A stretch of 64,000 nt of DNA, taken from an uncultured Pelagibacteraceae bacterium. Its GTDB lineage: Bacteria > Pseudomonadota > Alphaproteobacteria > Pelagibacterales > Pelagibacteraceae. Shown one piece after another: positions 27,598 through 30,887 of this stretch. The stretch lies in assembly GCA_902572345.1 (NCBI GenBank), contig CACGEW010000003.1, positions 1 to 64,000 on the forward strand. The letters run 5' to 3'. The translations under genes were made by a program, and so were the position numbers. The first letter of the stretch is position 1. Each line of letters begins with the position of its first letter. A model generated the notes under the pieces. That model saw nothing but the letters and a program-made list of their open reading frames with translations, was not told where the DNA came from and searched no databases.

Positions 27598-27681
27598 TGG
27601 ATATTTATACCAAACCCACCCTGAACATCAAATGTATTCAATAAAGATAAATTGTTCTGTTTAATTAAAGAATTAAAAAAT

Positions 27682-30669
27682 ATGTTCCAACTGTTAAATT
27701 TTTATAAAACTCATAATTTAGTAAGATTAATTTTTATTCTTACTTTATTAATAATTTTTTTTCCTAAAGAAAATTATGCTTGTGATGATGTTGATGGCGC
27801 GACTGTAACTTACACTTCAGATTGTAGACAAATAGTAGTAACGGGTGATGGTTCTAACATTACTATTGATGGCGCTACAATTAAAGGAGCATCAGGCACT
27901 AATGAAAAAGGAATAATCACTACAGGCGGAACTAATACTACTATTACTATTAATAGCGATGCAGCTATAGGTTACGACACTGCAGCTGGCCTTGATAGAG
28001 TCGGAATTACAAATCAAGCAGGGGGTAGTATTACAACGATTACTAATAATGGAAGAATAGAGACTAGGCAATCCACTAACTCTGGATATGGTTATCCAAT
28101 TACTAATTCAGGTACCATTGGAGATATAGTTAATAGTGGAGATATTTTTTCAAACAGCAGAGCTTCAATTTATAATTGGAGTGGAACAGTTAGCAAAATT
28201 GAAAATACGGCAACCGGCGATATTTATGCAAGACGAGAATTTGCTATTGGAAATTCAAATACCATTGGAACAATAACAAATGCAGGGATGATTAGAGCCG
28301 GTAAAGGACAAACAATTAAGAACTCGGGCTCAGGGGACACAATAACTTTAATAGAAAATACAACTAGCAGCGCAACGATAAAAGGTGAAGATGATACCAT
28401 CTATAATGAAAGTGGCGGCATAATTACAACAATCAAAAATGCCGGCACAATACAAGCATGGGGGAGTAGTAATGCAGTAGCAATTAATAGTACAGGCGCA
28501 ACAATAGATACTATAGAAAATACAGGAACTATTGAGGCCAACAATGATGGTAGGGGAATTTCTACTGCAAGTAATGGTGCAATCAATACAATAACAAACT
28601 CTGGAACTATTTCTGGCATAAATGCTGATGGTGTAATTTACACTGGCTCAACCGGAACTATCGGTACAATTACTAATACTAGCTCGGGTAGAATTGAAGG
28701 AAGTGACAATGATGGTGCAATTAAAAATGTAGGGACAATCACCACAATAAATAATTCAGGCGTAATTACAGATGATACTGATAATAGTATTTTAAATAGA
28801 GGAACTATCACCACAATTAACAATACTGGAACAATAACAGGTGCTGCTTTGGATATTAGAAATGAAAAAGCTGGCGTACTTGGAACTATTACAACATTGA
28901 TTAACTCTCAAGGAGGGAGTGATGCGCTGACTTATGGATATAAGCTTCCTACAAATTACAAGGTAGTTGTTAATAGCGATACTGATTATGGTAAAGTAGT
29001 TTTTAGCAATGAGTCAAGCACAACAACATTTGATGTAGATAGTAGCTCAACCTTTAGCGGAAACACCGCAAAAACCTATACCGATGTTATTAGCGGTATT
29101 ACTGAAAGCGATATAGAATCTTGCACTAGCGATACCGATTGCGCAAACAACAATGATACTGGAGTTCTTGAAGGACATTATAGATATTTCTGGAAATTAG
29201 ATGATACCAATGGAGATGATGATTGGGATTTAATAGTAACCCCTGATCGTGAAGATTTTCAGGTAGAAAGAGATAATCAAAAGTATCGAGCAGAAAATAC
29301 TCTAACTAAACTAAGAGGCTTATATGATACTGCAAATTATATAGACGGAAGATTGCCAAATGAATGTAGCACAACGGGTTCAGAGGAAAACAGCAGTGAG
29401 CTTAAAGAAATTTGCAATCAAGGATTTGCTAAAATATTTCACAGCTATCAAAAAAGAGATGGCAAATATGAAGGATCATCATCAGGTGCTATTGGTATGT
29501 TTAAACCAATAGAATGGAAGGGCTATCCTATTGTTAGCAATGTATTTGTTGGTTACTCACATCAAGAAGGTGATTTTGATAATGGAGAGTATTTAGGTGG
29601 AGATAATTATGTATTAGGAATTAAAAATAATTATCAAAACAATGGACTTAATTTCTCTTTCACTCCAATGATCGGATTAAATGAATTAGGAGTTAAAGAC
29701 TTCGACTCTGTTAGAGTTGAGAAAAAGGCGACTAATCTTTTAAGTGAATTTGCTGCGGTGAACGCAAATATTAATAAAAAAATTGGAACTGGTGAAGATA
29801 GATTTTTAAATATAAGCGTAGATGGAACACTTGGTCTACAAAAATTTCCAGACTATTTATCAAAATTTACAGACGGCGACTTAAGTGTTGACGATTCCAT
29901 TGAGCAGTTACTAAGCGGTGGATTTGAAGTATCATATACAGAAACTTTGCCAGGTAAATTTGTTATTAAGCCTTATCTTGGAGTGACTTTGAGTGAAAAT
30001 CTAAACGAAGTAATAAATATTTCGGGAGGAAAAACGAATTCAAATGTAACAAATGATCACCAAGAAAATTGGTCAGGTTATAATGTTGGAGTTTCATTAA
30101 CTAAAGAAGTTAAGGGTGTCGATTTTGATTTAAATTTAATGTACGGCAATGAAGACGGTTTAATTAATCAAATCGCAGGGTTTTCATTAAAGAAAAATTT
30201 TGGTGCAGCTAAAGTAAAAACTGCTGCACTTATAAAAAAACCTAAACTACCAAAAATTGACGAAAGCCTAACAACACAAATTGATAAGAAAGATCTTAGA
30301 GAAATTGTAACTTTAAAAAGTTTAAACAAAGAATTAAAAGCTGAAAATGCTGAATTAAAAGCACAAAATGAAAAGCTAAAATTATTAGCTCAAAAAGCAC
30401 TTCAACAAAATAAAGCTAAAGAGAAATTAGCCATTGAAGTATTAAAAGAAAATGAAAAACTAAAATTAACCAATCAAATTCTTAAAAATAAAATTTTAGA
30501 AAATGAAAATGAACAATTAAGACAATCAATTGAGCAAGAATTTAACGAATTCAGTATGCTTAAGTATATCTTGTTTTTATTTATTTTCATTTTTTTACCG
30601 GCCTTAGTATTAACTTTATTGTTTGCTTTTATTGTCAATAGAATCAGATTTAGAATGGCAACTAATTAA
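27682..30669 (+). CDS. Autotransporter-like surface protein with C-terminal coiled coil and membrane helix
   Basis: A 995-residue protein from the ATG at 27682; a TTG at 27652 is an unlikely start. Regions in order: signal peptide (1-33, ending NYA before Cys34); Thr/Asn/Gly-rich passenger with many TITN-x-GTI-type repeats to about residue 410, suggesting a beta-helix; a linker; a beta-barrel-like domain (about 579-841) opening QGFAKIFHSY and closing GFSLKKNFG, the size of an autotransporter translocator; a Pro/Lys hinge; a Lys/Glu/Leu coiled coil (about 867-955) with repeated LKAEN/LKAQN heptads; a hydrophobic helix (about 961-986); and a short basic tail. Typical autotransporters end at the last barrel strand, so the coiled coil and transmembrane helix are unusual. 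Regions are identified by eye, not by a domain search. Cargo function is unknown. Confidence 0.75.
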   Translation: MFQLLNFYKTHNLVRLIFILTLLIIFFPKENYACDDVDGATVTYTSDCRQIVVTGDGSNITIDGATIKGASGTNEKGIITTGGTNTTITINSDAAIGYDTAAGLDRVGITNQAGGSITTITNNGRIETRQSTNSGYGYPITNSGTIGDIVNSGDIFSNSRASIYNWSGTVSKIENTATGDIYARREFAIGNSNTIGTITNAGMIRAGKGQTIKNSGSGDTITLIENTTSSATIKGEDDTIYNESGGIITTIKNAGTIQAWGSSNAVAINSTGATIDTIENTGTIEANNDGRGISTASNGAINTITNSGTISGINADGVIYTGSTGTIGTITNTSSGRIEGSDNDGAIKNVGTITTINNSGVITDDTDNSILNRGTITTINNTGTITGAALDIRNEKAGVLGTITTLINSQGGSDALTYGYKLPTNYKVVVNSDTDYGKVVFSNESSTTTFDVDSSSTFSGNTAKTYTDVISGITESDIESCTSDTDCANNNDTGVLEGHYRYFWKLDDTNGDDDWDLIVTPDREDFQVERDNQKYRAENTLTKLRGLYDTANYIDGRLPNECSTTGSEENSSELKEICNQGFAKIFHSYQKRDGKYEGSSSGAIGMFKPIEWKGYPIVSNVFVGYSHQEGDFDNGEYLGGDNYVLGIKNNYQNNGLNFSFTPMIGLNELGVKDFDSVRVEKKATNLLSEFAAVNANINKKIGTGEDRFLNISVDGTLGLQKFPDYLSKFTDGDLSVDDSIEQLLSGGFEVSYTETLPGKFVIKPYLGVTLSENLNEVINISGGKTNSNVTNDHQENWSGYNVGVSLTKEVKGVDFDLNLMYGNEDGLINQIAGFSLKKNFGAAKVKTAALIKKPKLPKIDESLTTQIDKKDLREIVTLKSLNKELKAENAELKAQNEKLKLLAQKALQQNKAKEKLAIEVLKENEKLKLTNQILKNKILENENEQLRQSIEQEFNEFSMLKYILFLFIFIFLPALVLTLLFAFIVNRIRFRMATN
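27830..28915 (+). repeat. Degenerate repeats encoding the TITN-GTI beta-helix passenger
   Basis: About 15-20 degenerate units of roughly 15-25 codons each encode variants of TITNSGTI, TIENTGTI and TTINNTGTI. The DNA repeats share patterns such as ACAATAACAAAT and GGAACTATT but have diverged. The repeats lie wholly within one reading frame, so they are protein repeats rather than a CRISPR or satellite. Confidence 0.8.
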
Positions 30670-30801
30670 AGTAATTTTATCCTACAAAATATGGGAAGAC
30701 TTGGAGCAGACTTGGAGATAGAGACGGAAAATAAATTATTTTTACTTATTTAAAACACTTGTGTATTAATATATTAACAATAACAATAAAAATAACACAG
30801 T

Positions 30802-30887
30802 GCCCTCGTGGTGAAATTGGTAGACACAAAGGACTTAAAATCCTTGCCCTTTTGGGAGTGCCAGTTCGAGTCTGGCCGAGGGCACCA
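30802..30887 (+). tRNA. tRNA-Leu (anticodon UAA)
   Basis: A cloverleaf with acceptor GCCCTCG pairing CGAGGGC, T-loop GTTCGAG, a class II long variable arm (TGCCCTTTTGGGAGT), and TAA anticodon in the loop between GGACT and ATCC, with CCA encoded. Eight bases separate it from the NAD kinase start, so the two are likely on one transcript. Confidence 0.97.

Follow-up and report, generated by a model that had tools for sequence, protein, structure and literature searches.

The gene analysed here lies within a 64,000-nucleotide stretch of DNA from an uncultured Pelagibacteraceae bacterium of the SAR11 group (hereafter the window), where it is flanked by a glycosyltransferase-9 (GT9) gene and a tRNA-Leu gene. 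Its open reading frame starts with ATG at 27682, closes with a stop codon ending at 30669 and comprises 995 codons, with a further in-frame TTG at 27652; this is the location given in a preliminary description of the DNA, and the sequence features listed there (an N-terminal hydrophobic segment, Thr/Asn/Gly repeats, a barrel-like region ending in GFSLKKNFG and the tail RIRFRMATN) are all present. The features of the locus are as follows.

27682..30669, + strand: whole gene, 995 aa, with predicted beta-helix passenger, autotransporter barrel, periplasmic helix and membrane anchor (ORF, homologues, single stop-free match in its own genome)
27682..27783, + strand: N-terminal hydrophobic segment, likely signal peptide (residues 1-34; hydropathy peaks at 10-28 and 16-34; AlphaFold2 helix 2-25)
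27790..29080, + strand: passenger, predicted right-handed beta-helix (residues ~37-466, prediction good to ~390; full-length AlphaFold2)
29278..29337, + strand: predicted helix ahead of the barrel, positioned like the autotransporter pore helix (residues 533-552; AlphaFold2 helix 14-33 in the model of 520-995; NalP, EspP and EstA matches begin upstream)
29416..30201, + strand: autotransporter barrel with 12 long predicted strands (residues 579-840; AlphaFold2 on 520-995)
30205..30285, + strand: low-confidence, little conserved linker (residues 842-868; pLDDT 38-41 in the covering blocks; mean pairwise identity 0.33)
30286..30546, + strand: long charged helix, possibly coiled coil (residues 869-955; AlphaFold2 helix 870-954; mean pairwise identity 0.58)
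30568..30636, + strand: hydrophobic membrane segment (residues 963-985; hydropathy 3.04; insertion energies adding up to -5.82)
30640..30666, + strand: basic C-terminal tail RIRFRMATN (residues 987-995; net charge +3)
30802..30887, + strand: tRNA-Leu(taa), edge of the insertion site

The preliminary description had cautioned that the region beyond the barrel might be a separate gene joined on by error. Two homologue searches, one with the window protein and one with a related short-helix form, found 233 and 234 sequences, respectively, and 120 of each were listed. A strongly hydrophobic C-terminal stretch was present in 119 of the 120 listed homologues of the window protein, the exception (P0096) stopping inside the helix and appearing truncated, and in 25 of 26 ORFs from 25 named, separately assembled loci, the exception (L053) being a contig that runs out. 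The anticipated homologues with the same extension thus exist, and since this type of in-frame end is so widely shared, with one frame continuing through it in independent assemblies, a sequencing join, gene-fusion error or chance event was rejected. The genome from which the window derives amounts to 990,790 bases in 21 contigs and is 92% complete. A Pfam search of the window protein returned no match; PF03797 was matched by 4 of 57 close relatives (best E 1.3e-5). No match was obtained when the PDB was searched by sequence with a profile from alignment A1 (56 of 120 sequences plus the window protein; a second alignment, A2, held 77 of 240 plus the window fragment).

Basic residues precede the N-terminal hydrophobic segment, for which hydropathy and AlphaFold2 point to a signal peptide. 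The full-length AlphaFold2 run, on a 57-row alignment, gave a good passenger but a barrel with pLDDT <50, and Foldseek with this full-length model yielded no matches at E 0.001. The passenger model matches Vag8, UpaB and pertactin, with the predicted beta-helix N-terminal to the barrel. When residues 520-995 were modelled with a broader alignment, the barrel folded, with 12 long strands within 579-840 and short ones at 777-782 and 785-790 (counted from the DSSP line). A missing barrel between about residues 579 and 841, which the preliminary description had named as fatal to its proposal, was therefore not what this model produced, and the 12 strands expected there were those predicted; the modelling supports a 12-strand barrel of autotransporter fold.

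With type Va autotransporters (NalP, EspP, BrkA, EstA and AIDA-I) the window protein appears to share a beta-helix passenger, a pre-barrel helix and a 12-strand barrel, and its N-terminal segment is a likely counterpart of their signal peptide. In classical autotransporters, however, the last barrel strand forms the C-terminus, whereas 155 residues follow residue 840 in the window protein and the last strand is internal throughout its family; matches to solved barrels stop at the last residues of those chains, the point at which the extension begins. As a control across the class, PF03797 was matched in 89 of 190 genomes (its own and one other genome of the same family included). At the 30 best-scoring loci, representing the best match from each of 30 of these 89 genomes and thus a non-random sample blind to proteins that Pfam misses, the ORF ended 20-37 residues past the Pfam match (≤27 in 29 of 30), and no helix or membrane segment followed the barrel at any of the 30. 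Six neighbouring autotransporter-like proteins in the same SAR11 loci were also inspected: five end in Phe, and the sixth runs off its contig.

The residues beyond the linker, ~869-955, are rich in Lys, Glu, Leu and Asn and are predicted to form a helix of 85-87 residues, or ~13 nm, in line with the length first estimated. The heptads ascribed to this stretch fared less well. A hydrophobic-only a/d pattern resembled that of shuffled sequences (p = 0.49 for the window protein; p ≤ 0.05 in 0 of 8 sequences tested), a Fourier test on hydrophobic residues did not recover the 3.5 period, and averaging over 26 sequences put the strongest period at 4.36, as opposed to the 3.5 of heptads. When Asn was counted as a core residue, a choice made post hoc with the sequence already seen, 20 of 25 a/d positions fitted in the window protein, a score matched by none of 2000 shuffles; the same test gave p < 0.05 in only 4 of 8 sequences. 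Hence an Asn/Leu a/d pattern stood in the window protein and canonical hydrophobic heptads did not, and the region is fairly described as a long charged helix that may be a coiled coil.

The proposal of a hydrophobic segment with a basic tail was borne out by hydropathy and charge, in the homologues as well as in the window protein, where the Kyte-Doolittle mean reaches 3.04 across 19 residues (963-981). Among 29 representatives with <85% identity (P0096 excluded), membrane-segment hydropathy was 2.1-3.56, barrel and membrane segment lay 105-137 residues apart (median 118), and the tail was net positive in 29 of 29 (mean +2.9). Insertion energies for the membrane segments summed to -1.23 to -7.87, and the lowest value at the ends of 120 coil-only proteins was +11.2 (both on the same scale). 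When a segment this hydrophobic follows a signal peptide, it is expected to halt within the Sec channel and remain in the inner membrane, and the basic tail agrees with the positive-inside rule in all 29 representatives; both points weigh against an arrangement in which the hydrophobic helix doubles back beside the barrel and ends in the outer membrane. That topology has a counterpart in Thermotoga Omp-alpha, which PMC9388160 describes as a coiled coil with a C-terminal transmembrane helix anchored in the outer membrane, yet for the window protein we regard it as very unlikely. Only 2-21 residues follow the membrane segment, and the mechanical sensor suggested earlier is accordingly not supported; such a tail is probably too short for signalling on its own.

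We instead think it fairly probable, from the structural models and the sequence comparisons, that the protein is an autotransporter anchored in both membranes simultaneously, with one chain that begins at the cell surface, passes an outer-membrane barrel and a periplasmic helix and ends in the inner membrane. The likely signal peptide would direct the chain through Sec, and the C-terminal hydrophobic segment, judging by its hydropathy and charge, would halt translocation and remain in the inner membrane, leaving the basic tail on the cytoplasmic side. The 12-strand barrel would be folded by BAM despite its internal last strand, a situation for which OmpA offers a precedent in that a soluble domain comes after its barrel, and the predicted beta-helix would presumably reach the surface via the normal autotransporter route. 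The helix of 85-87 residues, together with up to 27 linker residues, would then bridge the periplasm and cell wall; a periplasm of ordinary width could be spanned by a ~13 nm helix plus linker. In the assembled state both membranes would bear the load of the surface beta-helix. Points against this reading include the lack of a Pfam match, the low-pLDDT barrel of the full-length model and its empty Foldseek result, the failure to find canonical heptads and the scarcity of the full form (9 of 397 genomes).

The family appears in several forms. According to their titles, 23 of the 25 named loci are Pelagibacteraceae or Pelagibacter and two (L039 and L049) are given only as alphaproteobacterium; the nearest comes from a Pelagibacteraceae single cell, whose best segment is 83% identical. 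The profile matched in 80 of 397 genomes sampled from Pelagibacteraceae, in many of them solely via the repetitive passenger, and the full form was rare: 9 genomes, including that of the window, matched to the profile's last positions, and all 9 possessed the hydrophobic end. An order-wide search, in which 33 of 297 genomes matched, yielded 29 loci whose INTERMEDIATE forms comprised 2 with helix and membrane segment, 3 ending at the barrel and 24 with a short helix followed by a stop; the family-wide search brought the barrel-only loci to 5, all of which were examined. The short-helix relatives constitute a sister group (L008-L031; P0121-P0240) of autotransporters that end in a short conserved charged helix, LIIQLLKENQKLKTEN, without a membrane segment, itself an uncommon ending for an autotransporter; none of the 120 listed of the 234 found had a hydrophobic end, two of them (P0180 and P0187) appearing truncated. 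Because the window-family profile matches the short helix of 16 sister-type genomes (E 3.8e-5 to 3.8e-4), the sequences suggest that the short and long helices are homologous. In a barrel tree of 84 rows built by a quick method, the short-helix and barrel-only groups each fell on one side of a branch (SH-aLRT 100) and the fewest changes between forms was 2; the root, on a long branch, is uncertain, and the tree gives no direction of gain versus loss for the anchor. Searched against class genomes, the helix-plus-anchor query matched 6 of 385 at E 0.01, strongly only in its own genome (4e-36) and in G450 (1.6e-17); the other four (E 0.002-0.008) were rejected as the same module, their ends being unlike in sequence. 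G450 is labelled as another alphaproteobacterial family, and its ends match exactly those of L049, a MAG contig of 8.7 kb with two copies that is titled only Alphaproteobacteria. This contig is likely mis-binned SAR11 DNA.

Conservation was unevenly distributed along the protein. Mean pairwise identity among the 29 representatives was 0.68 for the barrel, 0.33 for the linker, 0.58 for the long helix, 0.34 for the membrane segment (minimum 0.03) and 0.21 for the tail. Pooled dN/dS, computed for the window together with the named loci other than L038, L048, L049 and L053 (21 of 25; 69 non-independent pairs), was 0.16 for the barrel, 0.26 for the helix, 0.63 for the linker and 0.64 for the membrane segment. 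That the barrel is the most conserved part, and of autotransporter fold, argues against a protein with one anchor at a time, in which the inner-membrane segment competes with barrel assembly and leaves the chain mainly in the inner membrane with its barrel region unfolded or periplasmic. Such competition would be in keeping with standard autotransporter biogenesis, where a free C-terminus at the last strand is the BAM binding site, but we consider this outcome very unlikely here. For the membrane segment, a dN/dS of 0.64, close to that of the linker, indicates weak constraint on its letters and counts against double anchoring, as does the fact that the closest sister group manages without the segment. 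Nevertheless, hydropathy and charge are retained at this dN/dS and at low identity, so that the letters appear loosely held while the character persists.

These same observations bear on a transient tether, in which the inner membrane holds the chain until the barrel is handed to BAM and the segment is then cut, leaving a mature product of the usual autotransporter kind that carries a periplasmic helix. Conservation is lowest in the linker and membrane segment, as can hold for parts that are removed, and the sister group functions with the helix alone; however, inspection of the 29 representatives by eye showed no fixed motif ahead of the membrane segment, exosortase PF09721 has no match in the 92% complete genome, and the helix is conserved as well (0.58 identity), not the anchor alone. 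We judge such cleavage unlikely, if less so than the alternatives above; sorting of the exosortase (PEP-CTERM-like) type in particular is not favoured, PF09721 and the motif both being absent from these searches.

The C-terminal end also seems to have a history distinct from that of the barrel. The window protein and P0003 share 98% of the barrel and 90% of residues 869-940 but only 40% of residues 950-995, and both tails are hydrophobic and basic. In a comparison of 120 rows (P0096 dropped), 14 of 1283 pairs with barrels at least 90% identical had tails <50% identical and, conversely, tails at least 85% identical were shared by 44 pairs with barrels <72%. On these alignments, the end appears to have been swapped by recombination with its properties retained. 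The persistence of the helix, the hydrophobicity and the tail charge, even across tail exchange, makes it highly improbable that the tail is neutral and without function on an otherwise ordinary autotransporter, a notion with which the weak constraint on the linker and membrane-segment sequences would agree. Barrel and helix dS were likewise discordant within pairs (L041/L054: barrel dS 0.50, helix 0.05; similarly L034 versus L035-L037), and because they differ so strongly in the same pair, intragenic recombination is indicated.

The gene is accessory and moving. Among 29 other loci surrounding the NAD kinase gene in the same genus, 7 have the GT9 gene and tRNA-Leu 63-132 bp apart without an autotransporter between them, the remaining loci being too short or differently arranged, and in the nearest named relative the gene sits between NAD kinase and tRNA-Thr. 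The tRNA-Leu/NAD kinase/tRNA-Thr stretch varies among same-genus genomes (window 27598-30801 and L095-L124), and the gaps flanking NAD kinase, which differ in size, point to a hotspot for insertions. At 14 of the 25 named loci the neighbours include genes of pilus type (PilM/PilN, prepilin peptidase, PilY1 or pilin families). Tandem copies of the gene family were seen in L033, L049 and L052, the second L033 copy also carrying helix and membrane segment, and a membrane-protein-like gene of ~483 aa (cluster F9) lies just downstream in L034, L035, L044 and L056, the L035 copy having no Pfam match. Because the gene is accessory, a general, essential envelope linker is unlikely. For a doubly anchored protein whose trait is accessory and horizontally shuffled, we read the role as holding a variable surface protein firmly in place; local membrane stapling would follow as a consequence, and the protein would not be the main envelope tether.

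Among known systems, OmpA-type proteins likewise have a barrel and then a periplasmic part, the C-terminus of OmpA being a soluble peptidoglycan-binding domain. The OmpA domain PF00691 was absent from the window protein by Pfam; its genome's single PF00691 match lies on another contig (C1), and with one OmpA-domain gene present, replacement of Pal/OmpA by the window protein is not supported. To our knowledge, no inner-membrane protein is at the same time, on a single chain, a BAM-type outer-membrane barrel, and in open-licence papers we found neither an autotransporter with an inner-membrane helix nor a chain combining a BAM barrel with an inner-membrane segment. The SlpA/OmpM tethers also join an outer-membrane barrel to deeper envelope layers via a long helix on one chain, but their coil precedes the barrel (PMC9388160, PMC10628300) and an SLH domain rests on peptidoglycan, whereas the window helix follows the barrel, ends in a membrane helix and is ~13 nm long as opposed to the ~28 nm of the SlpA coil; no SLH domain was found in the window protein by Pfam. 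Thermotoga Omp-alpha resembles the window protein in its long coiled coil and C-terminal membrane helix and differs in having no barrel, an N-terminal SLH domain and an outer-membrane placement, as described in PMC9388160. Within SAR11, a 2007 paper listed HTCC1062 autotransporters with one TM helix each, and a 2025 study (PMC12636525) described a large Pelagibacteraceae autotransporter adhesin whose gene adjoins type IV pilus/type II secretion genes and sometimes lies within hypervariable regions, a setting that recalls the pilus-type neighbours at 14 of the 25 loci here. By that description the adhesin genes measure 5-9.5 kb versus ~2.3-3.1 kb in the window family, and the terms "coiled" and "outer membrane" do not occur in its main text. 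Because a barrel at the very C-terminus, one defining feature of autotransporters, is lacking, we file the window protein as a variant autotransporter, new in its C-terminal extension.

More broadly, we see about an even chance that the family represents a new class of SAR11 envelope protein, in which a secretion barrel and a stop-transfer helix on one chain bolt a beta-helix through the envelope, lineages trade anchor cassettes, and plainer relatives (the barrel alone, or barrel with a short helix) show the route of assembly. The natural variants with barrel only, barrel and helix, or barrel, helix and anchor make the origin of such a staple directly testable. Pinning the outer to the inner membrane would be a link for which ordinary autotransporters are not built and, if true, would mean that Sec stop-transfer and BAM assembly can work on one polypeptide; it would also provide a ready tool for membrane tethering. 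SAR11, whose members are among the commonest cells of the sea, would then possess a means, so far unrecognised, of holding proteins at its surface and setting the spacing of its two membranes.
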